64,000 nucleotides of DNA from Hyphobacterium sp. CCMP332. Its GTDB lineage: Bacteria; Bacteroidota; Bacteroidia; Cytophagales; CCMP332. The stretch covers positions 1,342,001-1,406,000 of the forward strand of contig CP058647.1 in the NCBI GenBank assembly GCA_014323545.1, written 5' to 3'. The notes under the pieces were generated by a model. That model was not told where the DNA came from and made no database searches. It saw nothing but the letters and a program-made list of their open reading frames with translations. Positions 13,104 through 61,297 of this stretch are shown here, one piece after another. Each line of letters starts with the position of its first letter. The stretch's first letter is position 1. The position numbers and the translations under genes are program-made.

Positions 13104-13682
13104 ATGGAGCAAATTAAAAAGCATATAGAAGTTTATACTGAAGCAAATCCAAACCCGAATTCTTTGAAGTTTGTGGCCAATTTTCTTATTTCCCCCGATA
13201 ATAACAGCTACGATTTTGAAAGTGTACACAATACTGAAAATTCTCCCCTGGCAAAAGAATTATTTGCTCATAAGTTCGTAGAGCGTGTTTTTATTATGAA
13301 TAATTTTGTGACCGTCACAAAAGATGAAACAAGTGAATGGGCAGACATAATTCCTAAGCTTAAAAAAACCATCAAAAACTATCTTGAAAGTGGAGAAGAT
13401 GTAATCCGAAAATCGCAAAATGACGCGAATGAGATTCAGGATTCAGATCCTGAAGAAGTTAAAAAAATTAAGGAAATACTAAATGAATACATTCGTCCGG
13501 CGGTAGAAATGGACGGTGGATCTATTCAATTTTCCGACTATAAAGATGGTGTGGTTAAAGTTGAATTGCACGGAGCCTGTAGCGGTTGTCCCTCATCAAC
13601 ACTGACGCTTAAATCCGGAATTGAGAACCTCCTTAAAAGATTCATGCCGCAGGTTAAAGAGGTCGTTGCTGAAAACAAATAA
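13104..13682 (+). CDS. NifU-family Fe-S scaffold/carrier (Nfu)
   Basis: 192 residues from ATG at 13104; a TTG at 13080 is in frame but unlikely. The N-terminal Nfu domain (EANPNPNSLKFVANFLI) is joined by an acidic linker to the NifU C-terminal domain. The latter has VEMDGGSIQFSDYKDGVVKV and the cluster-binding CSGCPSS motif. It carries Fe-S clusters to apoproteins. It is the last gene of the batD-aroC-symporter run, about 45 bases after the symporter stop. Confidence 0.93.
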   Translation: MEQIKKHIEVYTEANPNPNSLKFVANFLISPDNNSYDFESVHNTENSPLAKELFAHKFVERVFIMNNFVTVTKDETSEWADIIPKLKKTIKNYLESGEDVIRKSQNDANEIQDSDPEEVKKIKEILNEYIRPAVEMDGGSIQFSDYKDGVVKVELHGACSGCPSSTLTLKSGIENLLKRFMPQVKEVVAENK

Positions 13683-13716
13683 TTCGTATTTTAATGTATT
13701 CAAACAATGGGTTTGT

Positions 13717-16146
13717 ATGCATATCATATTCCAAATACGAATTTCTCTCTTTATACTTGTTGTCTTTCTGACATTTGGTGTTACAAAGGCCCAGGTTTCA
13801 GTATCTGATACCGGTTCTATACAGCAAATTGTTCAATCGCTGGTTTCTGAAGGAGTTGTGGTTCAAAATATTAATCTCAATTGCCCAAGTGGGGCGTATG
13901 GAACATTTGCCGATACCACAAATACTTTAAATATTCCCAATGGATTAATCCTTACATCGGGTTCAATATTCGACGCACCCGGACCAAATGACGCGCCGGG
14001 CAGCGGGACCGATAACTTTTCACCCGGCGATCCCAGCCTGGATAGTTTAATTTTGTCAACAGGCGCAAACACGCAAGATGCATGTTTTGTTGAATTTGAT
14101 GTCATTCCCTCTTCAGATACGCTCCAGTTTAATTATGTTTTTAGTTCAGAGGAATATCTTGAATTTGTAAATGCTGGATTCAATGATGTTTTTGGATTTT
14201 TCATTAGTGGCCCGGGCATAAGTGGAAATAAAAATATTGCCATAATTCCTGGTACGGTCAATACTCCGGTATCAATTGATAATGTTAACAATGTATCTAA
14301 TTCTGCATTTTATGTTGACAATGGAGATGGAACGACACCTGCTTTAAATCCTAATCTGCAATACGATGGGTTTACAACGGTTTTAACTGCAAAAACTCCG
14401 GTTATTCCATGCCAGACCTATCGCTTAAAACTCGCTGTTGCCGATGTTGGAGATGGTATTCTGGATTCGGGTGTATTTATCGAAAAAGGGAGTCTTGGCA
14501 GTTTTGGAGCTCGAATATTGCCAAAATCCGTCTATACGCGCTTTGAATATGGCGTGGAAGGATGCAACAATGGAAAATTTGTTTTTATTCGAACCATAGA
14601 ACCCAGTTTTCCTGTTCCCCTGCGTTGGGATTTGGGAGGTACGGCTCAAAACGGAATTGACTTTGTAGATCTTAATGGAAATCCGGTTGGCGATCGCGAT
14701 ACGATTCCTGCATTTGTGGATTCCATAGAACTGTTTATTGTTCCAATAGATGATACTATTGTTGATCCCTTGGAAACCATCGTGTTAACACTTTTTGATC
14801 CATGCGATGACACCACATCTGTTCCCACCGGCGATTCTGTAACCTTGCTTATCCGCGAAACCTTTGTTTACGATGCCGGACCGGATGACAGTGTTTGTGT
14901 TGGCGAAGCGGTGGAATTGAATAGTAATTTTCTTGATAGTGATAGTATCGTTTGGTCTCCCGGGAATAGTTTGAGTTGCAATATTTGTCCAAATCCTTTT
15001 GCCTCACCACAGATTACCACCAATTACATTGTTCAAGTACAGGATTCAGTTACCAAATGTCTGGCTTTGGATTCGGTAGAAGTCCGTGTTTTTAATTTTC
15101 CTTTGGCCAATCCTGTTTCTTTTTCAGATTCTGCATTTACAGTATGCAATGGTGCGCCCATTGCAGTTGATCTTAACGTTGTACCGGATTCTACTTACAA
15201 TTCGCTGATTTATTCCTGGGATTCTACCACGGCCCTTGTTTTAAGTCCCGATTCTTCAAGAACAGTATTGCGAACATCGGTGGATAGGTATTTCCCTTTT
15301 GAAATTACCAATGAAAAGGAATGTACCAGTCGCGATTCCATCCTGATTACAGTTTTTCCAAAAACAGACATTTTTCTTGAGGATATCCCTGATTTGTGTT
15401 TTGGCGATGAGATTTTTATCGAACCTGATTTAATAACCTTTCCGGAATATTCATACAGTTATGAATGGATCCCAATAGGATCCGATGCAAATCCTGAAGA
15501 TATTTCAAATCCAAATGCTGCGAGCAGCACAATTAAACCACAGGGAAGTGGAGACCCGAGTTATGAGTATATCGTTTCAAATGGCGTTTGTAATGACGCA
15601 ATTCTAATTGAATTTGAAGTGAAAGAAGAAATTGAAGTGGATTATATCTATGAGGATCTTGGGGAATTTCCCCTGGCTCCTATCGAAGTAAATTTCGAAA
15701 ACAACACCTTTTTAATGTTCAGATACAATTACCAATGGAAAATATTTAATGCAGAGATCAATGTATTGATTGATAGTTTTGAATCTGAAAATCTTGATTA
15801 TATCTTTAACTACCCCGGACAATATCGAATAGAACTTCAGGCCAAAGATGATTTATTCGGTTGCGAAAACAGCATTTCTTTTACTGAAGAAATAAATGGG
15901 GTCATCAGGCCAAACGTAATTACCCCTAATGGAGATGGCTTTAATGACTTTTTTGAAATCCAGGCACCTCCAAGCCAGGTTTGGGAAATAAGTATTTATA
16001 ATCGCTGGGGGCATAAAGTATTTTCCAGTGAGAATTATAAGAATGAATGGGCGGCTGAAAATCTTAACTCAGGTGATTATTTTTACGAAATGCGGCTCAG
16101 CGAAAGTGACCTGAGATACAAGGGTTGGGTAAAAGTTTTAAAATAA
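13717..16146 (+). CDS. Large secreted T9SS type B cargo protein (choice-of-anchor L)
   Basis: 809 residues from ATG at 13717, which places the signal HIIFQIRISLFILVVFLTFG correctly; the open frame begins earlier inside nfu. A choice-of-anchor-L-like domain follows (SSEEYLEFVNAGFNDVFGFF, about 145), then Ig/PKD-like repeats. The end is a gliding-type C-terminal domain with NVITPNGDGFNDFFEI, YNRWGHKVFSSENYKNEW and GDYFYEMRL. That CTD is the type B signal for export through T9SS and surface attachment. Adhesin or matrix function is likely; ligand unknown. Confidence 0.9.
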   Translation: MHIIFQIRISLFILVVFLTFGVTKAQVSVSDTGSIQQIVQSLVSEGVVVQNINLNCPSGAYGTFADTTNTLNIPNGLILTSGSIFDAPGPNDAPGSGTDNFSPGDPSLDSLILSTGANTQDACFVEFDVIPSSDTLQFNYVFSSEEYLEFVNAGFNDVFGFFISGPGISGNKNIAIIPGTVNTPVSIDNVNNVSNSAFYVDNGDGTTPALNPNLQYDGFTTVLTAKTPVIPCQTYRLKLAVADVGDGILDSGVFIEKGSLGSFGARILPKSVYTRFEYGVEGCNNGKFVFIRTIEPSFPVPLRWDLGGTAQNGIDFVDLNGNPVGDRDTIPAFVDSIELFIVPIDDTIVDPLETIVLTLFDPCDDTTSVPTGDSVTLLIRETFVYDAGPDDSVCVGEAVELNSNFLDSDSIVWSPGNSLSCNICPNPFASPQITTNYIVQVQDSVTKCLALDSVEVRVFNFPLANPVSFSDSAFTVCNGAPIAVDLNVVPDSTYNSLIYSWDSTTALVLSPDSSRTVLRTSVDRYFPFEITNEKECTSRDSILITVFPKTDIFLEDIPDLCFGDEIFIEPDLITFPEYSYSYEWIPIGSDANPEDISNPNAASSTIKPQGSGDPSYEYIVSNGVCNDAILIEFEVKEEIEVDYIYEDLGEFPLAPIEVNFENNTFLMFRYNYQWKIFNAEINVLIDSFESENLDYIFNYPGQYRIELQAKDDLFGCENSISFTEEINGVIRPNVITPNGDGFNDFFEIQAPPSQVWEISIYNRWGHKVFSSENYKNEWAAENLNSGDYFYEMRLSESDLRYKGWVKVLK

Positions 16147-22008: not shown

Positions 22009-22806
22009 TCAATGAAACTTTAATACAATCGGAACAATAATTTTCATTCGGATCGGTCTTCCCTGATTCATTCCATATTCCCAATCAGGAGCGATGCTAA
22101 TTACTCTTAATGCCTCTTCATCGCATTCTTTGCAAAGGCCTTTCATCACTTGAGCTTCGGATAAGGAGCCATCTTCATTGACCGTAAACTGAACTACTAT
22201 TCTTCCTTCTATGCCATTTCTTTTTGCCGTTTCCGGAAATTGATAATTCTTTGCAATAAACCTAAGAAAATTTTTCATCCCCCCCTTTGGCCCTGGATTT
22301 CTGTCAACTTTTTCGTAGGAATCAAAGACTTTTACAGTTTCTTCAGGTGCTTCGTCAAATTTTATAATTTCTGTCGGTGCTTCGTCCAGGTCATTTAACC
22401 AGTCTATTTCAATGAGTTCATCTTCCTCTATTATTTCCTTGACTTCCACAATTTTTGGTTTAACAATTTTTGGTTTTGGAGGAAGAGGAATTTCAGTAAT
22501 TGGAATATCTGTGAATTCTTCAAATAATTTTGACTCCTTTTCAAATTCAATAATTGTCTTTGAGTCATAATCCTTCCATTCAAAAGCTGTGATAACTAAT
22601 AAGAGGGCGATTACAAAAGCTGCTGATTTTATTGCCTGTCGATATTTGACTAAATCCACTGATGGATTTTTTTTTAGGTAATAAACCGATCTCCCAGCTC
22701 TATTAATTTTAGGATAGGATTTTTTTTGGTGATGGATAAAAATTTTAAATAGAAAGGTCGTAGTTATTAACAGCAACAATAAAGCTACTGTGATGAATAC
22801 GATCAT
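22009..22806 (-). CDS. TonB-like energy transducer, copy 2 of 3 (divergent)
   Basis: 265 residues. Same build as its neighbours: two hydrophobic segments (about 2-24 and 56-77), AFEWKDYDSKT, a linker, and a TonB C-terminal domain with YQFPETAKRNGIEGRIVVQF. The linker is quite different, with a duplicated DEAPTEI/DEAPEET unit and fewer prolines. The C-terminal domain is also the most diverged of the three and has CKECDEEALRV. This suggests a different receptor partner. About 156 bases separate it from copy 1. Confidence 0.88.
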   Translation of the reverse strand: MIVFITVALLLLLITTTFLFKIFIHHQKKSYPKINRAGRSVYYLKKNPSVDLVKYRQAIKSAAFVIALLLVITAFEWKDYDSKTIIEFEKESKLFEEFTDIPITEIPLPPKPKIVKPKIVEVKEIIEEDELIEIDWLNDLDEAPTEIIKFDEAPEETVKVFDSYEKVDRNPGPKGGMKNFLRFIAKNYQFPETAKRNGIEGRIVVQFTVNEDGSLSEAQVMKGLCKECDEEALRVISIAPDWEYGMNQGRPIRMKIIVPIVLKFH

Positions 22807-22896
22807 TGTTTTGGCGTTTTATTATCATTAAAATACGTATGTGTATATATAAAACGATTAAAGCCAACAAATCGTGTATTATCTGAAAATCATAAA

Positions 22897-22923
22897 AAAA
22901 GCCAATCTGCAGATTGGCTTTTA
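22897..22923 (-). terminator. Intrinsic terminator after tonB copy 3
   Basis: A perfect palindrome AGCCAATCTGCAGATTGGCT at 22900-22919 extends to longer A/T-paired arms and is followed on the reverse strand by a T7 run. It lies about 18 bases past the copy 3 stop and separates copies 3 and 2 into different transcripts. Confidence 0.85.
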
Positions 22924-22940
22924 TTTAGTATGATTAAGTT

Positions 22941-23738
22941 TTAACTCAGTTTAAAAAACACAGGTACGGTCATTTTTACTTTGACCGGTCTACCCCTTTG
23001 ACGGCCCGGAGTCCAGTTAGGCGATGATTTTACTATCCTTACAGCTTCCTCATCACATCCGGCACCAATGCCTTTTACTACTTTTACATTGGTCAACGCA
23101 CCGTCTTTATCCACTACAAACTCCACAAATACTCTGCCTTCCACACCCATTCTTCTGGCTTGCTCCGGATAACGTATATTTTTACCAAGATATTCATAGA
23201 AGGCACCCATACCGCCTTTAGGCTCGGGTTGGTCTTCTACAATTAGAAATACCTGCTCTACTTGTTCTTCCTCAGGCTCATCTTCAACCACAACTTCCTC
23301 AATTACGGTTTCTTCCGTGACCTCAACATCGAGATTTACTTCTATTTCTTCTTCAATTTCTTCTTCATCAGGCACTTCGATGATTTCAGGTTGTTGAACT
23401 TTTGGCGGTGGTGGAGGTGGTTGCTGAGTTGGTGGAATTTCGATTACATCTTCAAAATTATCTTCAACCGAGCCCAAATCTATGGTTGATTTTTCATCGT
23501 AATCCTTCCACTCAAAGGCGGTTATTACAATTCCCAAACTTATAACCAATCCTATATTGGCCAGAAGCCCTGAATATTTATGAATATTCGAAACTTCGTA
23601 TTTCTTTTCTAAATGATGAGAATCTGCATGTTTGCCTTCTTCCATATATTTTGACGTTCGTTTATCAATAATAAATCTGAAAAGAAAGATCAAAAATACA
23701 AGAAGGAATAAGAGACCTCCTACAATTACCAGTGCCAT
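22941..23738 (-). CDS. TonB-like energy transducer, copy 3 of 3
   Basis: 265 residues, closest in sequence to copy 1. Hydrophobic segments lie at about 3-25 and 59-79, followed by AFEWKDYDEKSTIDLG. The linker is very acidic (VPDEEEIEEEIEVNLDVEVT) after PPTQQPPPPPPKVQQPE. The C-terminal domain has IRYPEQARRMGVEGRVFVEF and GAGCDEEAVRIV. It follows vanZ in the sprA-gcvH-vanZ direction with a 55-base gap and ends in its own terminator. Confidence 0.9.
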   Translation of the reverse strand: MALVIVGGLLFLLVFLIFLFRFIIDKRTSKYMEEGKHADSHHLEKKYEVSNIHKYSGLLANIGLVISLGIVITAFEWKDYDEKSTIDLGSVEDNFEDVIEIPPTQQPPPPPPKVQQPEIIEVPDEEEIEEEIEVNLDVEVTEETVIEEVVVEDEPEEEQVEQVFLIVEDQPEPKGGMGAFYEYLGKNIRYPEQARRMGVEGRVFVEFVVDKDGALTNVKVVKGIGAGCDEEAVRIVKSSPNWTPGRQRGRPVKVKMTVPVFFKLS

Positions 23739-24613: not shown

Positions 24614-26704
24614 TTATCCTGATAAGCTAAATCGCAATTGAATTCCAAATGCAGTACTTGTGGATTTAAAGGAGGTTGAAATTTTTGGATTATTGACATT
24701 TCTTTCAAAATAAGCCTGTAGGGATAGTCGCTGGTTTAGCATGTATTCAATGGTAGGTCTCAATTGAAACACAAAATTTCCTGCTGTTATTAAGCCGTTT
24801 TGATCAATTAATCTTTGCGTGGTTTCCGAGTCCCTGAAGGTCACCTGAGTTCGCATGGTCAAATCATTTTTTAAGGTCACCGTTCTTCCCTGCACCCTAA
24901 ATGGCAGTTTCATACCTGCTTTGGTATAGCCAAGGCTAACTACATAGTCGTTATTATTAATTTCCGTGACCGACCTGTTGTTAACATTTAAAGAAACATT
25001 TCGGCTTACACGGTACTCAAAGCTGGCATTGATCTTACTTTTTGTTCTGACGTTAACCCCAAAGAGAGGCGAAAATGACTCATTGATAGTAACGGTGGGA
25101 ATTATAAAAACAGGCACATAGGTGAAGCCGATAGAGTCTTTTTCTGTCTTTATCGTCGGATATGGCGGTTGTAATTCATAGGTAAATAAATCTATGCTCG
25201 ATTCGATATACTCCCCTGAAGAATTGTAATTGCTTACTGCATATGTGGATGAATAGGCATGATTTAAATTTATTGAACTGAATTTCTTTTTCAGCCATTT
25301 TACTTTACCCAAACCGGCATAATCCACTCTCCAATTCGGCAATGGAATTGTGGGAAATTGCTCAATACTTGAACTTCCGGCATCTCTTCCCGTGTATGCC
25401 ATGAAAAATGAAGAAATGAGAACTTCCTGATTATTTAAATCGTATCCAGACCCATTTGGATTTTCCTGATCCAGTCGAGCTCTTACGATAGCTCTGTTGT
25501 TTTCAAATTGTTGAAACACTTCGGTTACGTCTTTTCTGCCAGTAGCATTTGGACTAAATGCCGTTTTAATTGATATGGTTGAAATGGTGTAATTTCCATT
25601 TATTTGAGGCTGGAACCCTCTTTCTTCAGGAAACCCCGCTGCTCTGACTATGTTTCCCAAACTGTCAAATTCAGCTATGGAATATCTGAACTGTTCTGAA
25701 TAATTATCGGATTTTGACCTTTTTGCATCCAATTGAATTCTAAAATCCCGAATGGGTTCAAGAGAGGTTCTGAGTTGAATGGTTTCTGTTCTGCCCTGTG
25801 AAAATTGTGAGAAAAAGTTTTGATCTCGCGTAAGCCAACCATTTTGAGCTGCCCTGATTCTGATATCCGGGTTTTGATCACCCATTATAAATTTCCAACC
25901 AGGGGCGCTGGTGGTTGCGTAATTCAGCCCTGGATCATAGTATCTCCGATCAACCCCTACAATATCAACTTCAGGCATATAACCAGGTAAAAAGGTATTT
26001 CTGGTCAATGTATAAGTTCCATTAATGCTTTTGAGCGACATCAATACACGCAAGCCCGCTTTTAATCCTTTTAAGTCTTTTTTCTCTTTTTCTGTGCTAT
26101 CCTGTTTGGCATTGTTATTTCTTCGGGCCGGGGTCCTTCTCAAAGTCCTTCTCCTGGGTTGATTAACCTCCTTTAAAAATTTTGATTTATTGTAGAGCTT
26201 CAACATGTCAATTCTTCCATTTACAGCTGTCGTTTGTCTGTTGGAAATACTATTTCCGAGTCGGACAACCTGTCTTGATGCCGCGTTCCAGTCGTAGCCG
26301 GCCGTATAACTGACATCCGCATTCATCCAGTCGATTAATGGGATTTTGCTGAGTGGCACTTTATAGTTTGCTACAACCGTTTGTGTGTAATTGGTCATTC
26401 TTCCCAATTCGCCGATTTTTTGAAATAGCTCATCCCTGTATTCGCCTTTGTTTGGTTCACCTTCGGGTTCATCTATGATGGCTCTGACATTAACATTATA
26501 ATTTAGGCTTAAACTCTTTGTAATATTCCAACGAACGGCATAAGTCCTGTTAAATGTGAAAAGCTTTTGATAAAAAGTCTCCATGCCAATTGTATTCAGT
26601 TCATTATTTAGGTTTTGTGTTTTGGTGAAATCTCTGTTTAAATCACCTCTAACTGTATATGAATTGGGGAAGGGCGATAAATTGAAGTCCTTTATTAATT
26701 TCAA
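24614..26704 (-). CDS. sprA: SprA T9SS translocon, C-terminal part after an in-frame stop
   Basis: 696 residues if started at TTG 26704, which begins LKLIKDFNLSPFPNSYTVRG. This continues exactly where the upstream SprA frame stops: both are in the same frame, separated only by TAA at 26726-26728 and seven codons (KFLDKAY). The part contains the last beta-strands of the barrel, including FEYRVSRNVSLNVNNRS and the terminal TAFGIQLRFSLSG. On its own it has no signal peptide and could not reach the outer membrane. I treat it as the 3' portion of one gene, not a separate gene. Confidence 0.85.
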   Translation of the reverse strand: MKLIKDFNLSPFPNSYTVRGDLNRDFTKTQNLNNELNTIGMETFYQKLFTFNRTYAVRWNITKSLSLNYNVNVRAIIDEPEGEPNKGEYRDELFQKIGELGRMTNYTQTVVANYKVPLSKIPLIDWMNADVSYTAGYDWNAASRQVVRLGNSISNRQTTAVNGRIDMLKLYNKSKFLKEVNQPRRRTLRRTPARRNNNAKQDSTEKEKKDLKGLKAGLRVLMSLKSINGTYTLTRNTFLPGYMPEVDIVGVDRRYYDPGLNYATTSAPGWKFIMGDQNPDIRIRAAQNGWLTRDQNFFSQFSQGRTETIQLRTSLEPIRDFRIQLDAKRSKSDNYSEQFRYSIAEFDSLGNIVRAAGFPEERGFQPQINGNYTISTISIKTAFSPNATGRKDVTEVFQQFENNRAIVRARLDQENPNGSGYDLNNQEVLISSFFMAYTGRDAGSSSIEQFPTIPLPNWRVDYAGLGKVKWLKKKFSSINLNHAYSSTYAVSNYNSSGEYIESSIDLFTYELQPPYPTIKTEKDSIGFTYVPVFIIPTVTINESFSPLFGVNVRTKSKINASFEYRVSRNVSLNVNNRSVTEINNNDYVVSLGYTKAGMKLPFRVQGRTVTLKNDLTMRTQVTFRDSETTQRLIDQNGLITAGNFVFQLRPTIEYMLNQRLSLQAYFERNVNNPKISTSFKSTSTAFGIQLRFSLSG

Positions 26705-26725
26705 ATAGGCCTTATCAAGGAATTT

Positions 26726-29700
26726 TTATCTTTTGAAAGGTTCAATGCTTATATTTTTGGCCGAGTAGTTATAGCCAATGCCAAATGTGTGGTTGGTTCG
26801 TTTAAAAACAGCAATGGTGGGGCTGTTCCGTAAATTTTCTGTGTAACCTGCGGAAAGATTTAAATTCTCAATATCGTAAATCCTTGATTTGGCATTTGGA
26901 TTGGTTTTTATCTTTTGAAGGTTGGATACTCTGAAACTTCTGATCGTGTTATTGGTCGTCACTTTATCCTCATATTCCTTGGCCACCTCTGCTCCGGATT
27001 CCGCTTCTATCGCATCGAGTTTGTTTTCAAGGCGCACATCGGGGTCGAGTGGGTCAAATTTTGGTGTTACTCTTGACCTTTCATAACGAACAAAAAACGG
27101 CACCTTCAATCCAACTGACTCCGGGATGAATTTATCAACATTAATATTGGATTGAATGTCGTATTGCTCTTGTGTTGATCGCGAACGATCCGAAATTTTA
27201 TCGCCTATTGCTCCAAACCCTTCGGTGACATATTTACCGGAAGTGGTCACGGTAGCAAAATCAGCCAGTTTGGAATTGACTCTCGCCGTTGCTGCCCAAC
27301 CTGCGTTTTTGTCAAATTCAGCCACGCGAAGTTCATTAAACCACAAACAAACTGATTTTTGTTCATTAAGCTGCTCACTATCAAGGTATAAATTTCTAAC
27401 CCCTAGCATGACAGTTAGAACATTGCTTAAATCTGGATTTCCTTTCACCGAAATGGTGTATTTACCATTTTGATATTCGTAATAATTTACATCGCTATCA
27501 GGATTTGGGCTCAAGCCGTTTCTCTCTCTTCTCAGGGCTTTTGCTTTGGTAAGATCATCGAAAAGTATGTCAAATTCATTGCTTTCAGGCCAGATTTCTT
27601 CCGCTCCTCCGGCACCAGGATCGGTGATGTCTAAAGGAATTGAAACTTCATAATAATTGTCTTCGAAATCCGTTCCGATACGGATAAACGCTGCCATCTC
27701 TCCATCTTCCGCGCTTTGATCCGGAGAGTGCGCATGTACATACATTCTCAATCGTTTATAATTTAGGAAATCGAAGGTAACATTTTTGAAGACGGCTCTG
27801 GCCCGGTCGTTTCGCAGATCGTCCACACAGATTTGAAGCGATTGCTCATTGAGTTGTCTTGAAACTTGTGAGGTATTATCAAAATCACGAATTACGCCCG
27901 GTGGTAGCACATATGGTGAATTGTTCGCATCTCCCTGACCGTTTTCTTCAATATTTACGGTTGAGATGAAAAGGTTGCTTCTTTGATCATTTACAGGTTC
28001 TAAACCGGTATTTCTTGCTGCAAACTCATCTTCATAGCGTCTCCACTGACTCGATACCAATTGAAGATTTACAAACCTCAAAACAACAGGTTCCTCCCAG
28101 CCTGTTAAAAACATTCTCATCCATTTTATTGAATTAAAAGTCAGCCCTGAGCCGCCCTCCTGAGAAGCCAGGCTATTTTCCAACTCCCGAATTGGAATTC
28201 TGAATTGATACCAGCTGACATCCTCTCCATTGACATTGGCCACCACTCTGTCGGTAATGTACCCATTTCCTACTTGCATTTGCGCAGGTTTGAGGTCTAT
28301 CTTGTATTGAAAATATCTATTGAGCGGATCAACATTAAAATTTTGATTTAAATCTTCATCATCGGGGAGAGGACTATTCGATGGTGTAAAAAGATTGCTG
28401 TTGTTTTGAGCTGGGGAATTGCCCTGATTTCCATTGAATTTTTTATATCTCTCAATTACTGAAGGCTCTGAAACCGGGTAATCTCCTTGCAAGTAATAAA
28501 CGAAATCATCATTTGAGGGATCATCCAAAAGTCTTTGAGCTGCATCGGGATTTGCAATTTGCGATACCGCAGTGATATAAGGTTGATATGGACCAAAATT
28601 TCTTTCGCCTTCATTATTTAAACCATCCAAACCGATATCCTGCTGATTTCTGGCGTCCGGATCATTGTCAAATGCTCTGGTTACATTTGAAATGGTCGGT
28701 ACCTGAGCCCAATCTGTCGCTTCTGTAGCACCGACAGGAGGTAAACCGTTTTCAAAGGAATATTTTCCGTCTTTTAAAACGTCTTCTGAGATATCTCCAA
28801 GGTTAAAAAAGAGAGTTCCTCCCGTTGTATTATTGCTTCCTTCTGTCCCATTGGGACCTGTGGCCACTCTTCCATTATCCCCATCGAGGAATGGGTCCAT
28901 CAACCAAAATTCGATGTATTCAATATTTGCTGCATCAAAATTATTATTGAATGTAATTGGCCTCGTTATCCCCGCCCACTTGCTTTTAGCTACTTCGGGT
29001 CTGAATTTTCCGGTATTGAGGTCAATTTCAGAAAGATTGGGGTTGTAATTATAGGGCCCTCTTTCGGTCGGAAAAAAAGCTAGGTCAAAAGTAAATTCAT
29101 TAAAATTAACTGCCTGTCCTTGTCGGTTCGGAAACACCTCGTTGAAGCCAACGGCTCTTACATAGTGGTTTGCCAGCTGTTCCTGAGTAATGTGATCGGG
29201 CTTTCCCCTCCCCTGTTGACGGTAAAAAACATTATCAATGGTATACCATGCCAGTCTTGCACGATTATATCCGAATTCCAGACCATTCAATGAACTTTCG
29301 GGAAAAAGGAGCGGTGTGGATGCCAGTTTCCATGAATTAGGCACCCTGGTAAAATCGTAAGGTATTTCAGCTCCCTCGAAATCGTCGATATAAGAATTTC
29401 CTCCCGAACCCAATCTTCTATGCGATCCGGGGATAAGGTAAGCTGCTTCGGCATTTACGGTTACTGAAGATTTTTCTTTTGTAGAAATCAACGGAATAGC
29501 ATCTACGGCTTTGGTCAATAATCTGGATTCCTTCGACATACTCATGTCCATTCCCACCATTACATTTTTTGTGGGTTCATCGCCTATGTTTACCCTTGTA
29601 ATGATAGGCCGCTCATTTAGCATCATGAATGTACCCCCCAGGTTTACATCGCGATTTAATTTATAATCGAGTCTTGCCCCAAAGAGTGATCTTTGTTGAA

Positions 29701-31957
29701 AATTAAAGAGATCGGCTTTCTCGTATTGTATTCTAATTTCACTACCAGAGTTCAGTACGCCCTCATCGGTGATCAATACGCTTCCAAGATTGTAATTCAC
29801 TGTAAATTGCTGGCCTTCCGTAAGCTCAGAACTCCCTGCAAATACCTTCACCGAGCCTCTGGCAATATTGAATCCCGGTAGATTGATTTCTGATCCTGCC
29901 GAACCCTGATAAGATCCTTTAATCCTGAATTTATTTTTATCAGCTTGCAGACGCGCGATAGCTCTGGCGCCAGTATATAAAGTATCAAATGCATACTTAT
30001 TGGCCAATAAGCCTTGTTCCTGATCAAATACCTCTTCTCTTAAATAGGACCCAAAGGGTTCCAGTTTTGTAAAGAAGATTTTCCCTCTTCTTACATCGAT
30101 AGTAACAGGTTCATAAATCAGATTGGTTGAATTATCGACAAAATCAAAATTTCCATCTGCACCCGGATCATTATTGGGATTTAATTTATCGACTTCAAGC
30201 AATTGAACCAATGGAACATCTTTAATTCCGGGCCCACCTTCATGCAAAGAGGGATTATCAACACCTGAAGCATCATCCCTGTATATCACGCGCATTTCAA
30301 AGTTTTGCTGGGAAATCTGATTGGCACCTAATGAATAGACGTTTTTCATCATCAGATCCCATGTGGGATTATCCAAAAGAGGGCTCGAACTAGGCCTAAG
30401 CAATTTTAGATATATATTTTGGCGGTCTCCAAGGTTACTGTAATCCTCCTGCAATTCCCCAACCTTGTAATTTCTTCCGTTGACAGAATATTCAAAGGCC
30501 ACCGCTACAACCACATCCTGCTGGAAAGATTGGTGAATGGTTATATATCCAAGTTTTGGATGAAAACTGTATTCTGAATCCGTAAGTTTTCTTACTCTAT
30601 CAATGGTTTCAAAATCCTGCCCCGGCAATAATCCGTAAACCTCAAGATTCGCTACTGTTCCATCATTTCTAATGGCCTGATCGGAACGCATGGTTTGATA
30701 TAAATTATTATTCTCATTATCAACCGGTGCATTAGGGTTTACTGTAAAGCCAAATTGTGCATTATCCTGGATTCTGGTAATTTCAGGACGAGCTTCACCC
30801 AAATCGGTAAAAGCGATCATGTTTCTTTGTGACTGGGTTTCCTGGTTTCTGTTGGTTACATAAACTTCAACCCTATTAATAATTACCCCGGAATTTATAA
30901 TTGGATAATTTTCAAGCCAGGTTTCATAATTATCGCGGAAATAATGGGATAAAAAGAAATGTCGGTCTTCATCGTAATCTGAAACCGGAATATCAAATTC
31001 TGTATTTTGAACACCTCCGGAACTGATGGTAATGGATTCCGTTCTACCCCTCTGGTTCGACACAACTGCTTCAACATTTAGCTTGCCGAATTTTAGTTTT
31101 GTTTTAACACCCATTAGGTTTTGTGAACCCTGAATCAAGGCACTCGGTGGGTTAAAGGAAATGTTTCCCGCTTCAATATCCTGAATGATATCTTCTTCAA
31201 AACCCTGATAATCTACTTTTACCTGATTCTCAAATTCAAATGATGCTTTGGTATCCCAATTGGCTGTGATTTTAAGTTTTTCTCCTACATTTCCTACCAG
31301 GTTCATACTGATTTGTTGATCGAAATTAAATCCTCCATTTCGTTGTTGTCGAATTGGAATTGCCGGATTATCTACTCTTTGCCATCTGGCTCCGAAATCG
31401 AGGGTTACAAATCCATTTGGCCGTATATCCACATAATTCCCTCCAAAAATTCTGTCAAAAGCCGGGGATAAATATATTTTGGGGATCAGGCTTCTGTCAT
31501 TTCCAAGTGGATTATCATCGCCCTTGCTGCCTGTTTTTTCCATGAAATACTGGCGATCCATCTCTGCTTTTCGCATTTCATAAAATCGATCATAAGACAT
31601 GGTCGTTGGGGGTCTGTAGAGATCGTCACCAACTTTTTCGGTTATGGTAAAATTTTTAAGGCTATCATCGATTTGTACATCCGTATCGATATTAGATGGA
31701 AGTCCTAAATACAAGGAAGACCGCGAAAGGCGGTCGGTCATTGAATTTCCATAATAATCTTGTGTACCAAAATTTGGTCGCCGGCTGGGCTCATAGGGTT
31801 TTATTGAGTCCGTATCCAATGAATCAGGAGGAACCATTGCGCCCACCAATGAAGATAATTCCAGAAATTCGCCAATAGCGATTCCTGCAAAGCCTTCTCC
31901 TATTGCGCATAAGAGAAGAATGAATATTCCACATATGAAGCGTAATTTAAAACTCAA
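26726..31957 (-). CDS. sprA: SprA T9SS outer-membrane translocon, N-terminal part
   Basis: 1743 residues up to an in-frame TAA. SprA is the giant 36-strand barrel that passes T9SS cargo across the outer membrane. It starts at TTG 31957 with signal LRFICGIFILLLCAIGEGFA. Typical SprA segments are IPKIYLSPAFDRIFGGNYVD near 155, the GFVTLDFGARWQRVDNP region and VNAEAAYLIPGSHRRLG near 840. With the 3' part the frame spans about 2447 codons, matching the family (about 2400). Order ruvA-sprA-gcvH is conserved. No other damage is seen, so the stop is isolated. Confidence 0.93.
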   Translation of the reverse strand: MSFKLRFICGIFILLLCAIGEGFAGIAIGEFLELSSLVGAMVPPDSLDTDSIKPYEPSRRPNFGTQDYYGNSMTDRLSRSSLYLGLPSNIDTDVQIDDSLKNFTITEKVGDDLYRPPTTMSYDRFYEMRKAEMDRQYFMEKTGSKGDDNPLGNDRSLIPKIYLSPAFDRIFGGNYVDIRPNGFVTLDFGARWQRVDNPAIPIRQQRNGGFNFDQQISMNLVGNVGEKLKITANWDTKASFEFENQVKVDYQGFEEDIIQDIEAGNISFNPPSALIQGSQNLMGVKTKLKFGKLNVEAVVSNQRGRTESITISSGGVQNTEFDIPVSDYDEDRHFFLSHYFRDNYETWLENYPIINSGVIINRVEVYVTNRNQETQSQRNMIAFTDLGEARPEITRIQDNAQFGFTVNPNAPVDNENNNLYQTMRSDQAIRNDGTVANLEVYGLLPGQDFETIDRVRKLTDSEYSFHPKLGYITIHQSFQQDVVVAVAFEYSVNGRNYKVGELQEDYSNLGDRQNIYLKLLRPSSSPLLDNPTWDLMMKNVYSLGANQISQQNFEMRVIYRDDASGVDNPSLHEGGPGIKDVPLVQLLEVDKLNPNNDPGADGNFDFVDNSTNLIYEPVTIDVRRGKIFFTKLEPFGSYLREEVFDQEQGLLANKYAFDTLYTGARAIARLQADKNKFRIKGSYQGSAGSEINLPGFNIARGSVKVFAGSSELTEGQQFTVNYNLGSVLITDEGVLNSGSEIRIQYEKADLFNFQQRSLFGARLDYKLNRDVNLGGTFMMLNERPIITRVNIGDEPTKNVMVGMDMSMSKESRLLTKAVDAIPLISTKEKSSVTVNAEAAYLIPGSHRRLGSGGNSYIDDFEGAEIPYDFTRVPNSWKLASTPLLFPESSLNGLEFGYNRARLAWYTIDNVFYRQQGRGKPDHITQEQLANHYVRAVGFNEVFPNRQGQAVNFNEFTFDLAFFPTERGPYNYNPNLSEIDLNTGKFRPEVAKSKWAGITRPITFNNNFDAANIEYIEFWLMDPFLDGDNGRVATGPNGTEGSNNTTGGTLFFNLGDISEDVLKDGKYSFENGLPPVGATEATDWAQVPTISNVTRAFDNDPDARNQQDIGLDGLNNEGERNFGPYQPYITAVSQIANPDAAQRLLDDPSNDDFVYYLQGDYPVSEPSVIERYKKFNGNQGNSPAQNNSNLFTPSNSPLPDDEDLNQNFNVDPLNRYFQYKIDLKPAQMQVGNGYITDRVVANVNGEDVSWYQFRIPIRELENSLASQEGGSGLTFNSIKWMRMFLTGWEEPVVLRFVNLQLVSSQWRRYEDEFAARNTGLEPVNDQRSNLFISTVNIEENGQGDANNSPYVLPPGVIRDFDNTSQVSRQLNEQSLQICVDDLRNDRARAVFKNVTFDFLNYKRLRMYVHAHSPDQSAEDGEMAAFIRIGTDFEDNYYEVSIPLDITDPGAGGAEEIWPESNEFDILFDDLTKAKALRRERNGLSPNPDSDVNYYEYQNGKYTISVKGNPDLSNVLTVMLGVRNLYLDSEQLNEQKSVCLWFNELRVAEFDKNAGWAATARVNSKLADFATVTTSGKYVTEGFGAIGDKISDRSRSTQEQYDIQSNINVDKFIPESVGLKVPFFVRYERSRVTPKFDPLDPDVRLENKLDAIEAESGAEVAKEYEDKVTTNNTIRSFRVSNLQKIKTNPNAKSRIYDIENLNLSAGYTENLRNSPTIAVFKRTNHTFGIGYNYSAKNISIEPFKR

Positions 31958-31971
31958 ACGTAGACTGAGGT

Positions 31972-32562
31972 TTAGGCAGATTTTAAAACTGACTTAATTA
32001 ATTCTTCTAACCGGATGTTTGTTCCCTTGTCTCTCATCACATTATCAATTGCTTTTTCTGCTGCGGCTTTAGTATAGCCGAGAGTTAATAAAGCGGATAA
32101 CGCTTCTGAGCGCATAGTATTGTCAGTTCCGGAAGAATTTAATGAGGAATTTTCAAGGAGTTCATCAGGTAATTTGTCTTTTAATTCGAGGATAATTCTC
32201 TGCGCTGTTTTAGCACCTATTCCCTTGACGGCCTGGATGACGCTGACCTGTGAATTAAGAATGGCAGACATAAGGTCCGAAGGCTTCAAGCTGGACAAAA
32301 GCATCAATGCTGTATTTGGCCCGACCCCACTTATGGAAATTAATTGTTGAAAAACCATTTTTTCTTTTTTGTCATTGAAACCATAAAGTGTGTGTGAGTC
32401 CTCCTTGACATGAAAATGGGTATGTAAAAATACCTCTTCTTTATCGCCTATTTCAGAATAAGTATTAAGTGAAATTCGTACTTCATGCCCAATTCCATTG
32501 ACATCAATTATAAAGTGTGAGGGGTCCTTAAAGACTATCTGACCTCTGATGAATGCTATCAT
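31972..32562 (-). CDS. ruvA: Holliday junction branch-migration protein RuvA
   Basis: 196 residues from ATG at 32562; the open frame extends upstream into maeB but MIAFIRGQIVFKDPSHFII is the true N-terminus. The OB-fold is followed by helix-hairpin-helix motifs (LISISGVGPNTALMLLSSL and VKGIGAKTAQRIILELKDKL) and a C-terminal RuvB-binding helical domain. RuvA binds four-way junctions and loads RuvB, encoded at 6500. maeB precedes it by 7 bases and sprA follows by 14. Confidence 0.96.
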   Translation of the reverse strand: MIAFIRGQIVFKDPSHFIIDVNGIGHEVRISLNTYSEIGDKEEVFLHTHFHVKEDSHTLYGFNDKKEKMVFQQLISISGVGPNTALMLLSSLKPSDLMSAILNSQVSVIQAVKGIGAKTAQRIILELKDKLPDELLENSSLNSSGTDNTMRSEALSALLTLGYTKAAAEKAIDNVMRDKGTNIRLEELIKSVLKSA

Positions 32563-32569
32563 TTGTTTT

Positions 32570-34831
32570 CTATTTGCTTTGGGCATCAACCACACCCACT
32601 GCAACCATATTTATAATTTCTCTTATTGTGCTTCCTTGTTGTAAAATGTGAACCGGCTTATTCATTCCCATGAGAATCGGACCGATCGAATCCATTCCCC
32701 CCAGTTCCTGTAATAGTTTGTAAGTAATATTCCCTGAAGCAAGGTCAGGAAATATCAGTGTATTGGCACCGTCTTTTACCAGGGTGCTAAATGAAAAATG
32801 CTCTTTTTGAAGATCTGGGCTAATTGCTACATTGGCTTGAAATTCACCTTCAATTAATAAATCCGGGAATTTCTCTTTGGCTTTTTTAACCGCCTTCATC
32901 ATTCTTTCAGGCACTTTACCTTTGGCAGAGCCAAAATTAGAATAAGAAAGCAGACCAATTTTAGGCTCTAAGTTAAAATTCTTAACTGCCTTGGCTGTCA
33001 TTCCTATAATCTCTACCAAATCATCTACATCGGGTTCCCGATGGATGGTCGTATCTGCGAGAAAAAATATCCCTTTCTCATTGATCAAAATGTACATTCC
33101 GGCCACCCGTTTCCATTCCGGATCAGCGCCGATAACTTCCAGTGCCGGACGAATGGTTTTAGGATAATCTCTGGTCAACCCGGAAATCATTACATCTGCC
33201 ATTCCGGTTTCCACCATGGCAGCGGCAAAATAATTTCTATCCCTCATCAATTTGGTGGCCATATATTTCGTTACACCTCTTCTTTGTCGTTTTTCGTAAA
33301 GAAGATTTCCAAATTTCTCACATAAGTCCGGTGTGAGGAAAGGATCAATAATTTCGCATGCATCCAGATCCAGATTATTTTCTTCAATCAGTGCTTTGAT
33401 CTTTTTTTCATTACCCAGAAGAATCGGGAAAGCAATGCCCTCATCAAGAGATGCCTGAGCTGCTTTTAAAATGGTAAGATTATCGCTTTCTACAAATGCA
33501 ACTTTTTTGGGATCCTTTGTCGCCCTGTTAATAATTCTGGAAATTAAGCGCTGATCTATGCCAATACGTTGTAAAAGGTCATTTTCATATTCTTTCCAAT
33601 CAGAAATGAGCAATTGAGCTACATTGGAATCCATTGCAGCTTTTGCCACCGCCGGAGAAATTCTCGTAATCAATCGTGGATCGAGTGGTTTTGGGATTAG
33701 ATAATCTTTGCCAAAGCTGAGGGTATTATTTCCATAAGCTTTATTAACGATCTCAGGAACCGGTTCTTTTGCCAGGTTGGCTATGGCATAGACCGCAGCC
33801 AATTTCATTTCGCTGTTTATGCTTTTAGCTCTTACATCAAGCGCTCCGCGGAAAATAAATGGAAATCCCAGCACATTATTGACCTGATTTGGATGGTCTG
33901 ATCTTCCCGTTGCCATATAAATATCTTTCCTGGTTTTCATGGCCAGGTCATAATCGATTTCTGGAACCGGATTTGCCAACGCAAATACAATAGGATCCTT
34001 ATTCATATTCTTGAGCATTTTAGGACTTACCAAGTTGCCTACAGACAAGCCTACAAAAACATCGGCATCTATAAATGCATCTTCAAGCTGAATCTCTTTA
34101 TCCGTGCTTGCAAAAGCCCTTTTAAGATCATCAATATCTTTTCGTTTTTTGTTAATCAAGCCCTTGCTGTCAAACATGAAAAGATTTTTTTTCTGCGCAC
34201 CAAGTTCAATCATCAGGCTGGCACAGGACAATGCTGCCGCGCCTGCTCCATTAAATACAATTTTAATGTCCTTTATTTTTTTGCCATTCAAATCCAACGC
34301 ATTTATCAGCGCAGCACAGGAAATTATTGCGGTGCCGTGTTGGTCATCGTGCATGACAGGAATATCCATTTTATCCCGGAGTTCCCTTTCTATTTCAAAT
34401 GCTTCCGGCGATTTGATGTCCTCCAGATTGATCCCTCCAAAAGTCGGTTCCAGCGATTTGACAATTTTTATAAATTCTTTCGGATCGGTTTCGTCTATTT
34501 CCAAATCAAATACATCGATTCCTGCAAATTTTTTAAAAAGCACGCCTTTACCCTCCATTACGGGCTTACTTGCCTCAGGCCCAATATTTCCAAGTCCTAA
34601 TACGGCTGTGCCATTTGAAATAACACCTACAAGATTGCCCTTGGCTGTATAGCGATATACGTCGGTAGGATTTTCGGCAATATCCTTACAAGGTTCTGCA
34701 ACGCCCGGTGAATATGCCAATGCCAGGTCTTGTTGTGAGCTTAATGGTTTGGTAGGAATAACCTCTATTTTTCCCGGCTTTCCCTGCTCATGATAGGATA
34801 GAGCATCCTTTCTTCTAATCTTAATAGCCAT
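32570..34831 (-). CDS. maeB: NADP-dependent malic enzyme fused to a phosphotransacetylase-like domain
   Basis: 753 residues. Residues 1-420 are malic enzyme: YSPGVAEPCKDIAENP, the VLGLGNIGPEASKPVMEGKG loop, MHDDQHGTAI and the NAD(P)-binding IVFNGAGAAALSC. Residues 430-750 are a phosphate acetyltransferase-like domain (FPILLGNEKKIKALIEEN, GPILMGMNKPVHILQQGST) that acts as a regulatory part in MaeB. It converts malate to pyruvate and CO2. ATG at 34831. A long antisense open frame inside it is a shadow. Confidence 0.96.
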   Translation of the reverse strand: MAIKIRRKDALSYHEQGKPGKIEVIPTKPLSSQQDLALAYSPGVAEPCKDIAENPTDVYRYTAKGNLVGVISNGTAVLGLGNIGPEASKPVMEGKGVLFKKFAGIDVFDLEIDETDPKEFIKIVKSLEPTFGGINLEDIKSPEAFEIERELRDKMDIPVMHDDQHGTAIISCAALINALDLNGKKIKDIKIVFNGAGAAALSCASLMIELGAQKKNLFMFDSKGLINKKRKDIDDLKRAFASTDKEIQLEDAFIDADVFVGLSVGNLVSPKMLKNMNKDPIVFALANPVPEIDYDLAMKTRKDIYMATGRSDHPNQVNNVLGFPFIFRGALDVRAKSINSEMKLAAVYAIANLAKEPVPEIVNKAYGNNTLSFGKDYLIPKPLDPRLITRISPAVAKAAMDSNVAQLLISDWKEYENDLLQRIGIDQRLISRIINRATKDPKKVAFVESDNLTILKAAQASLDEGIAFPILLGNEKKIKALIEENNLDLDACEIIDPFLTPDLCEKFGNLLYEKRQRRGVTKYMATKLMRDRNYFAAAMVETGMADVMISGLTRDYPKTIRPALEVIGADPEWKRVAGMYILINEKGIFFLADTTIHREPDVDDLVEIIGMTAKAVKNFNLEPKIGLLSYSNFGSAKGKVPERMMKAVKKAKEKFPDLLIEGEFQANVAISPDLQKEHFSFSTLVKDGANTLIFPDLASGNITYKLLQELGGMDSIGPILMGMNKPVHILQQGSTIREIINMVAVGVVDAQSK

Positions 34832-50351: not shown

Positions 50352-50782
50352 AACATTCTTGTCATGGTTTTATGTAGAATGCCGCATTCCTCAAAAATTT
50401 CTCCTTCGATTTCAAAGCCAAATTTGAGATAAAGCGGAATGGCATCGAGTTGAGAATGCAAAAGTAATTTTGCAGGTTTTTTAATGATTTCTTCTATATC
50501 CTTCAAAACGGATTCAACAAGGGCAGATCCAATTTTTTTATTTCTGAATTCCTTTAAAACGGCAAAACGTTCGAGTTTAATGTAATTCTCCAATTCTCGC
50601 CAACGCGCGGCTCCGACGGCTTGATCATTGTATCTGGCCAAAAAATGTCGTGCCTCTTTCTCAAATTCATCTACCTCATCTTCCAAGGCCACTTTTTGTT
50701 CATCAACAAAAACTTTCTTGCGGATTTCAAGACAGAATTGATAGTCCGGGCTGTCCATTGAAGTCTGTATTACTTCTATCAT
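50348..50782 (-). CDS. GNAT family acetyltransferase
   Basis: 144 residues. GNAT core: CLEIRKKVFVDEQKVALEDE near 17, RFAVLKEFRNKKIGSALVES near 72 with the acetyl-CoA-binding R-x-x-x-I-G-x loop, and LLLHSQLDAIPLYLKFGFEI near 102. It acetylates an unknown amine. 4-base overlaps on both sides place it in the phoH-to-DUF2490 run. Confidence 0.9.
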   Translation of the reverse strand: MIEVIQTSMDSPDYQFCLEIRKKVFVDEQKVALEDEVDEFEKEARHFLARYNDQAVGAARWRELENYIKLERFAVLKEFRNKKIGSALVESVLKDIEEIIKKPAKLLLHSQLDAIPLYLKFGFEIEGEIFEECGILHKTMTRML

Positions 50783-52080
50783 GGTTTTAAAGGTCCATAA
50801 ATTTTGAAACGCTGGGTATCTCCATTTTTATAATGGATTTTCATAATATATATCCCTCTTCTTTCTGCACTCAGAGCAAACTGAATTTCTCCAAATGCAT
50901 TTGAGCGTATGAATGCATCTTCAAGCCGTTTTCCCTGCAGGTTAAAAATCGTGATTTTGTAATCTGTTCCCGGGTCGAGATTAAAGATCAGATATCGGCC
51001 TTCCACCTGATCGACGGTCCCAATTTTTACATTTTCCCTGATTGGGTTATTGTCTGTGGTATCCTGTCCGAGATCACAATTGATGGAACCTGTTAAACTT
51101 GAAAGCAAAAATGAACTTCTGTTATTGGGCAGGTTGGCATCAAATATATTTCGGGTTAAAAGTTTTTGACATTGAGTGAAAATATTAAAACAATGATCAT
51201 CGGAATAGTCCATGTAATTTCGAACCATATCCGGGCTTCCACAGGATTCATGTGTAGTATCGCATCCAAAATTACCCGCATCTGAATCCGGAGTATCATC
51301 GCAACCGTCATCCACAGCACAATTTCCATCTCCCCAAATGTGCACCAGACCGAGCCAATGCCCAACTTCATGGGTCATGGTTCTTCCGCGATTATAAGGA
51401 AATGCAAATGCATCGATTGAAGTACCTGTGCGATTTCCGAAATACCTGTTTGACATGACTATTCCGTCTGTTTCCCTGGGATCCTCGGGAAAACTCGCAT
51501 AACCGAGAAAATTATCGCTCAATCGTGGCACAACATAAACATTCATATATTGATCGGCAGGCCAATGGACAATTCCTTTTATTTCTCCGTCATCAGCGCC
51601 CGCATCGTATTCATCTTTAGCTCTGTAATGTCTGGTAATCCCATCCGTTGCTTGCCCCTGTGGGTCAAGTTTCGCCATGCAAAATTCTATTTCCATGTCT
51701 GCACCTTCGGGCAAATCATTAAAACCCGGGCTGCCAAATTTTCTTCTATAGTCCTGGTTGAGAACTTCGATCTGAGACATAATCTGTTCTTTGGAAATAT
51801 TTCCAATATTAGGGTCATCTGAGATAATTCCCGCCTCCGATGTGTGAATGACATGTACGACTGTAGGAATATACAAAAGCGTATGCTTAAGCCCATCGCT
51901 TAACTTTTCTGCCGTAGTGGATCTAGCTATTCTTTCAATTCTTTGTTTGAGATAATCCGGATTAGTTTGTAGGGCAATAGAATCTCTGTAAGTTGTAGCA
52001 CATTTTTGCCCATAGGAATACCCAAATAGGCTTAGAGCAAAAATGAAAATACTAATCTTCTTTTTTACTCTGCTTGTCAT
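50779..52080 (-). CDS. Secreted M43 (pappalysin-like) zinc metalloprotease
   Basis: 433 residues. Signal peptide near 1-24 (ISIFIFALSLFGYSYG). The catalytic zinc motif MTHEVGHWLGLVHIWGD (HExGHxxGLxH) is near 237, with the C-rich CDDTPDSDAGNFGCDTTHES loop and the RNYMDYSDDHCFNIFT met-turn region behind it. Residues about 350-433 form a beta-rich T9SS type A-like tail (ITIFNLQGKRLEDAF, RGIYIMKIHYKN). Predicted to be exported through T9SS. Overlaps phoH by 29 bases; no later start would keep the signal peptide. Confidence 0.9.
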   Translation of the reverse strand: MTSRVKKKISIFIFALSLFGYSYGQKCATTYRDSIALQTNPDYLKQRIERIARSTTAEKLSDGLKHTLLYIPTVVHVIHTSEAGIISDDPNIGNISKEQIMSQIEVLNQDYRRKFGSPGFNDLPEGADMEIEFCMAKLDPQGQATDGITRHYRAKDEYDAGADDGEIKGIVHWPADQYMNVYVVPRLSDNFLGYASFPEDPRETDGIVMSNRYFGNRTGTSIDAFAFPYNRGRTMTHEVGHWLGLVHIWGDGNCAVDDGCDDTPDSDAGNFGCDTTHESCGSPDMVRNYMDYSDDHCFNIFTQCQKLLTRNIFDANLPNNRSSFLLSSLTGSINCDLGQDTTDNNPIRENVKIGTVDQVEGRYLIFNLDPGTDYKITIFNLQGKRLEDAFIRSNAFGEIQFALSAERRGIYIMKIHYKNGDTQRFKIYGPLKP

Positions 52081-57902: not shown

Positions 57903-59291
57903 TTAATTTTCAATGATTAGTTTGCCTTGTATCATATCATTGTTCAATTCAAGCTCATAGATGTAGATACCTCTTCTGAGGTGAGAAATATCAACACTAT
58001 TTATTTTTGAATTTAATGAACTTTCAAATTCAAGAACTCCACTAAGATTGAATAATTTTAGGGTGTTAGTTGGTACTTGCACTAATTCGATATTCAAGTT
58101 TCCATTCGATGGATTTGGATAAAATTTCAGATCATTTCTCTCAGAATTTTGCAAAGAATTTGTGCTTTCAATAATCCTGGAAATTTTTCCATCGTACAAA
58201 CCGGCCACAAATACTTCTCCCTTATTGTCTTCACCAAAGGCCACAAAATAGTTTGAACTCGAAAAGGTACCGTGATTCGTCACATTGAAATTCCCATCCA
58301 GTGAGCTAATCCAACCGGGGCATATATCAGCGAAAAAATATCTACCATATAATCCGGGATATCTACTCCCGCGATAGACTACTCCTCCGGTAACGGAACA
58401 CCCGCCCGAATTATGAGCGTATTCATAAACCGGATCGGTCATTGTAGAATCCGGTGGGCAATTATTTAAATTATAAGAGCTGGTGCCTTCATAGCATCGC
58501 CAACCGTAATTTTCACCCCCCGTACTTGTAAAAGGCTGAAAATCAATTTCTTCTTTGGCGTCCTGCCCTACATCACCTATCCACAAATCGCCGGTTTGTC
58601 GGTCGAAACTCATCTTCCAGGGATTTCTCAATCCATAAGCCCATATTTCCTCCCTTACAAAGGTGCTCATGCCTACAAAAGGATTATCCGGTGGAATGCC
58701 ATAGGGCATGGCGGTGTTTAAGTTTATTCGCAGAATTTTACCCAATACTGTCGTAAGGTCCTGAGACCTGTTGCCGGGATCACCTGCGGAACCACCATCT
58801 CCTAATGCGACATATAAATAACCGTCCGGACCAAATGCTATGCTGCCTCCGTTGTGATTTGAATAGGGTTGAGGCTCATTTAGTATTGGAAATTCAGCGT
58901 TCGGATCTGCACTGTCGGGATCATTGCTCACTGGAAACAAAGAGATCTGCGTGCTTCCATCCAAAGCTGTATAGTGGACGATGAAATTTGGATTAGATGC
59001 AAAATCAGGAGGAAAAGCTATTCCCAAAAGTCCTTGTTCATTTCCGGTACTGTTTACCTGATTAGAAATATCCAGAAAAGGAGTGCTGTTTTTATTCCCA
59101 AGAGAATCAAGAATCCAGATTTTACCGGCCTGCTCTACGATAAACAAGCGCGAGTCATTTCCACCAGGACTTTGAATATCCACCGGACGGGTAAAACCGG
59201 TAGCAAAAGTTTCCAGATCGATGATTGGCTGAGAAAAAAGTGAAAAGTTGAAAGTTAATAGTGAAAAGGTAATGAGTAATAGCTTTTTCAT
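57903..59291 (-). CDS. Secreted PQQ-type sugar dehydrogenase-like protein, T9SS type A
   Basis: 462 residues. Signal KKLLLITFSLLTFNFSLFSQ, then a glucose/sorbosone dehydrogenase beta-propeller (FATGFTRPVDIQSPGGNDSR, HNGGSIAFGPDGYLYVALGD near 148, EIWAYGLRNPWKMSFDRQTG near 213). The tail has the T9SS type A pattern LKFYPNPSNGNLNIEL and RRGIYIYELELNN. Such enzymes oxidise sugars with PQQ and Ca2+; here export is predicted. Its ATG overlaps the previous gene's stop by 4 bases. Confidence 0.92.
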   Translation of the reverse strand: MKKLLLITFSLLTFNFSLFSQPIIDLETFATGFTRPVDIQSPGGNDSRLFIVEQAGKIWILDSLGNKNSTPFLDISNQVNSTGNEQGLLGIAFPPDFASNPNFIVHYTALDGSTQISLFPVSNDPDSADPNAEFPILNEPQPYSNHNGGSIAFGPDGYLYVALGDGGSAGDPGNRSQDLTTVLGKILRINLNTAMPYGIPPDNPFVGMSTFVREEIWAYGLRNPWKMSFDRQTGDLWIGDVGQDAKEEIDFQPFTSTGGENYGWRCYEGTSSYNLNNCPPDSTMTDPVYEYAHNSGGCSVTGGVVYRGSRYPGLYGRYFFADICPGWISSLDGNFNVTNHGTFSSSNYFVAFGEDNKGEVFVAGLYDGKISRIIESTNSLQNSERNDLKFYPNPSNGNLNIELVQVPTNTLKLFNLSGVLEFESSLNSKINSVDISHLRRGIYIYELELNNDMIQGKLIIEN

Positions 59292-61101: not shown

Positions 61102-61297
61102 GCAATAAACCATGGTATTTCTATAATAAATATATAAAAATTATCCATGACATTTTTATTGAAATTTGATTAATACCATTATCTAATTGATTCATTTCAG
61201 TACTAACTGATATAAATCAATATAAACTCTCACACAGTGCATTTGCCGCTTAAAATATTTGACCTAAACTTATTTTCCGCATCAAAGTATCAATGTC

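Follow-up and report, generated by a model that had tools for sequence, protein, structure and literature searches.

A single in-frame stop codon interrupts the only sprA gene of Hyphobacterium sp. CCMP332

The only sprA gene of Hyphobacterium sp. CCMP332, which encodes the outer-membrane translocon of the type IX secretion system (T9SS), is interrupted by one in-frame TAA codon. The remainder of the gene is intact, and the other T9SS genes that we tested are open. The explanation that we favour, with somewhat better than even confidence, is a real and very recent nonsense mutation that would have caused loss of function in the sole sprA gene of this organism. A single-base error in the genome sequence is the main alternative.

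The interrupted sprA gene and its surroundings

The sprA locus lies on the minus strand of the window, the 64,000 nt stretch of DNA analysed in this study (Table 1). The first-pass annotation described a gene split by a single in-frame TAA codon with no frameshift, and direct reading of the sequence upheld this description together with the coordinates and lengths of the two frames. In a profile search, the full gene matched TIGR04189, the SprA equivalog model, at 2414 bits across positions 4–2318 of 2319 with one TAA inside the match, which is above the model cut-off of 200 bits. The upstream half matched positions 4–1625 of 2319 and the downstream half positions 1635–2318 of 2319 (532 bits). 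The two halves cover the model without overlap and leave only nine positions around the stop codon between them, showing that the gene has neither lost nor duplicated any sequence at this point.

No second in-frame stop codon or frameshift was found in positions 24614–31957, in agreement with the earlier statement that sprA carries no other damage. The two halves had also been said to add up to a normal SprA length, and the 2447 residues obtained by reading through the stop codon do compare well with one-piece SprA relatives, the open frames of which are mostly ~2360–2620 residues in length. The host genome is a single contig of 3,325,829 bases with exactly one sprA match, and no second copy was found in this 3.33 Mb sequence.

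The gene is 62% identical to the SprA of a same-family genome (L029), and also matches F. johnsoniae SprA (6h3i). The F. johnsoniae protein (PDB 6h3i, 6h3j, 8gl6 and 8gl8; TIGR04189/Sov) belongs to the same family over its whole length and forms a single 36-strand barrel. Its 2403 residues form one unbroken chain, in which Thr1705 (numbered by counting along the alignment) occupies the position of the host TAA codon. In contrast, the host gene as sequenced ends at codon 1744, and does not encode a single continuous 36-strand-barrel chain.

Upstream of sprA on the same strand are ruvA and a malic enzyme/phosphotransacetylase fusion (window 31972–34831). ORFs of matching length to ruvA and the malic enzyme precede sprA at a same-family locus (L112), where the neighbours thus appear to be the same. 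On the minus strand at window 22009–23738 we observed two adjoining 265-residue TonB-family ORFs, each with a TonB C-terminal domain, which suggests a tandem duplication; two ORFs of 268 and 265 residues lie beyond sprA at the same-family locus.

Table 1. Coordinates of the sprA features, the direct repeat, T9SS cargo genes and same-frame gene pairs (window positions unless a locus is named)
Feature	Position	Strand	Remarks
sprA, T9SS outer-membrane translocon gene	24614..31957	minus	Contains a single in-frame stop; full readthrough length 2447 residues
sprA upstream frame, 1743 residues, start TTG 31957	26729..31957	minus	Signal peptide, N-terminal region and approximately the first half of the barrel
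sprA in-frame TAA, codon 1744	26726..26728	minus	Direct reading
sprA downstream frame, 703 codons and normal stop	24614..26725	minus	C-terminal half of the barrel
15 bp copy of TTCAAAAGATAAAAA containing the TAA	26723..26737	minus	Exact direct repeat
Second copy of TTCAAAAGATAAAAA	26905..26919	minus	182 bp upstream in sprA, other frame (LQKIK)
Type-A T9SS cargo gene	50779-52080		
Type-A T9SS cargo gene	57903-59291		
Type-A T9SS cargo gene	59288-60193		
Type-A T9SS cargo gene	60190-61113		
Type-B T9SS cargo gene	13621-16146		
Same-frame neighbour pair	L151:5348		GroES/GroEL
Same-frame neighbour pair	L157:12893		ECF-sigma-like start
Same-frame neighbour pair	L153:10490		Glycosyltransferase-like start

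The stop position among relatives and a local direct repeat

An order-level scan of 59 genomes identified SprA in 56, including the host, and an in-frame stop codon in the host alone. As none of the other 55 genomes with SprA contained such a stop, its presence in the host gene is more than a matter of chance. In a wider draw of 390 genomes, SprA was found in 367 and, among the matches listed, the stop was again seen only in the host. SprA was mostly absent from one family in the order-wide scan, the genomes of which are 0.7–1.9 Mb in size; this pattern looks like T9SS loss accompanying genome reduction.

Alignment of the region around the stop codon, a check proposed at first pass, gave a sense codon in the aligned relatives and a stop in none (0/109). 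The corresponding column was occupied by Ser in 30 of these 109 relatives, Val in 22, Ala in 16, Ile in 12, Met in 8, Leu in 5 and Lys in 1, with a gap in 3, and both same-family genomes have Ser. Given this composition, the TAA codon is most simply derived by one substitution from a Ser codon, and not from a Gln, Glu or Lys codon. CAA, GAA and AAA, which had been named among the possible origins of the stop, are poor candidates, with Lys in a single relative and Ser in the same-family genomes. Relatives with two truly separate sprA genes, also raised by the first-pass annotation, were looked for and not found.

Identity to the nearest relatives was somewhat lower downstream of the stop codon (54–56%) than upstream (67%), a difference that a fast-evolving barrel end may explain as well as decay. 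When 84,980 species genomes were searched, no relative closer than ~47% identity came up at the sprA locus, and no genome of the host species. With the nearest sprA relatives only ~62% identical, saturation is to be expected at silent sites.

The TAA codon falls within one of only two direct repeats of at least 15 bp within 500 bp in the window. To put this in proportion, a base-rate sample of 21 stretches of the host genome (434 kb, 308 long ORFs) had 0.14% of its bases in direct repeats of this kind, and 6 of 17,830 15-mers of the same G+C content had such a nearby copy. The codon before the stop encodes Arg, a residue found at that column in 3 of the 109 relatives. As this residue is likewise uncommon at its position, both the Arg and the stop codons could be accounted for by a single short copying event. 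The stop may have been templated by the upstream copy, although the repeat was noticed post hoc and its sequence provides a hint only.

The rest of the secretion system and the predicted effect on SprA

The T9SS partner genes gldKLMN, porU and porV, and cargo genes encoding C-terminal sorting domains (CTDs), are present in the host genome. The porP, gldK, gldL, gldM and gldN genes lie in a row and are all full frames, porV and porU are full frames without stops, and the GldM gene and two C25 peptidase genes are open. Type-A sorting domains matched 116 times in the genome, and no stop fell within any of these matches. Five T9SS cargo genes with clean frames had been reported in the window, and all five were recovered, four of type A and one of type B. 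With its partner genes and cargo domains open, the T9SS as a whole has not decayed, which means that the stop codon is either very young or not there. A sequence error would predict intact cargo and machine genes just as well.

Three of the type-A cargo genes (window 57903–61113) are arranged head to tail with overlapping ends, forming a cargo operon within the window that also holds the interrupted sprA. Elsewhere, a small type-A cargo gene on the minus strand (L167:2113-2863; C1 ~1252612-1253362) looks frameshifted: its first part, an ORF of 136 residues, begins like a signal peptide and overlaps an ORF of 145 residues, which is in a different frame and has the sorting domain at its end. Either this is a second gene with recent damage, or the sequence contains a base error.

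The effect of the stop codon on the barrel was modelled with AlphaFold2 for residues 1501–2447, with the stop treated as a residue (mean pLDDT 82, pTM 0.72). In the model, codon 1744 falls in a loop that separates the strands at model positions 215–232 and 266–282, and 18 strands of at least 12 residues, counted from the element list, follow the stop. The top four PDB matches of the model were all F. johnsoniae SprA. As SprA is a 36-strand barrel (PMC10994853), 18 long strands beyond the stop imply that a protein ending there would be missing roughly half of the barrel, the C-terminal strand included. After the stop, the frame encodes no signal peptide and lacks a start or leader of its own; the first downstream start in the ORF list, TTG 26704, falls within a conserved LKLIKDFN segment. 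In barrel proteins, the C-terminal strand usually carries the outer-membrane insertion signal. Judged from the structure model, a real TAA codon would be expected to create a complete SprA null.

In Cytophaga hutchinsonii, deletion of sprA leaves most T9SS substrates unsecreted and abolishes gliding, and the deletion mutant grows in rich or suitable medium (PMC7906972), indicating that a sprA null is viable. Together, the structure model and the literature support the earlier claim that a true stop should abolish T9SS export. The accompanying description of SprA as one 36-strand barrel with a second half devoid of a signal peptide was likewise borne out, by the literature for the barrel and by the lack of a leader in the frame.

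Origin of the stop codon and its meaning

Several observations favour a real mutation. Across the 308 ORFs of the 434 kb sample, no other gene was split by an in-frame stop codon. The other same-frame pairs of long frames in the sample were set aside because, judged by eye from the peptide that follows the stop, they looked like adjacent genes, the second starting shortly after the first had ended (Table 1). The reading frame and the neighbouring A runs of sprA show no damage, whereas most errors in long-read data are indels in homopolymers (PMC12007338). By analogy with mutants of other species, sprA nulls would be both viable and selectable. The position of the TAA codon within a rare local 15 bp repeat adds a hint in the same direction.

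Stop codons in sprA are present in isolates of F. columnare exposed to phage (PMC9233685 Table 2), and sprA stops or frameshifts accompany phage resistance in this species (PMC9233685). The sprA and gld stop and frameshift mutants selected with phage V156 (PMC9233685) resemble the host in having a premature stop in an otherwise intact sprA, in keeping their other T9SS genes, and in the expected loss of secretion and gliding. They differ in coming from a controlled experiment with known ancestor and phenotype, while the host belongs to another bacterial order and is known here from sequence alone. We found nothing on stop codons in natural sprA genes in the literature beyond F. columnare.

If the stop is a real mutation, translation would end at codon 1744, and roughly half of the 36-strand barrel, with the C-terminal strand, would be absent from the product. 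The truncated SprA would presumably be degraded, and T9SS export and gliding would be lost in cells carrying the TAA allele. We speculate that this allele probably spread during culture or through selection, for example by phage attack; alternatively, it may be one variant of a mixed population. It would be too young for decay of the cargo and other machine genes to have followed, and the mutation was possibly templated by the copy of the same 15 bases located 182 bp upstream.

A tenable though less probable explanation is that the TAA codon reflects a single wrong base introduced in sequencing, polishing or assembly, and that sprA is intact and the T9SS functional in the living organism. The open state of all other tested T9SS genes and of the 116 cargo domains is consistent with such an error, as are the sense codons at the stop column in all relatives and the Ser codon of both same-family genomes, which is one substitution away from TAA. 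The frameshifted-looking small cargo gene may also point to residual errors in the sequence. Gene-fragmenting errors of long-read assemblies (PMC12007338) likewise interrupt a conserved gene that is whole in relatives, in a genome assembled as one contig. However, those errors are mostly frame-breaking homopolymer indels, and both the frame and the homopolymers of the host sprA are preserved. Furthermore, the 434 kb sample contained no other in-frame stop split, and a random miscall would have no reason to fall in a rare local 15 bp repeat.

The first-pass annotation listed base error, recent null mutation and readthrough as possible explanations. This set was the right one, but readthrough does not stand on a par with the other two. 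We consider it very unlikely that translation passes the TAA codon, by readthrough or recoding, and yields some full-length SprA from the gene in its present form. The downstream 703 codons are intact, SprA-like and free of further stops, and the remaining secretion system has been kept, as readthrough would predict; an intact downstream frame is equally explained by a very recent stop. TAA is the main terminator of the host, ending 196 of the 308 ORFs sampled, and the 33 tRNA genes found all decode normal codons, with no suppressor anticodon among them. The pattern occurs in no second gene of the 434 kb sample, and the stop is conserved in none of the 109 aligned relatives or 55 other genomes. 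The base after the stop is A, and to our knowledge TAAA is not a leaky context, which also counts against readthrough. On this sequence evidence, recoding of the sprA TAA codon appears unlikely.

Slighter still is the likelihood of a regulated or leaky stop that allows a little full-length translocon to be made and acts as a translational brake on the whole T9SS. The least credible reading is a SprA produced in two pieces that join to form a single barrel. Neither half is damaged and the stop falls in a loop predicted to separate two strands, but the second half, without its own signal peptide, start or leader, would stay cytoplasmic, and the split gene is found in no relative.

Nonsense alleles of sprA are already known, and the host case is either a further such allele, in a new lineage, or an artefact. 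Either way, the point is a small one, and only proven readthrough would surprise. If the stop codon is an error, automatic annotation will list sprA as two partial genes in an organism that has a T9SS. If it is a real mutation, the representative genome of a Cytophagales lineage describes a secretion-null, non-gliding clone, to which predictions of >100 secreted proteins would not apply, and sprA of this organism would represent one more loss of the T9SS through a nonsense change, as seen under phage pressure.
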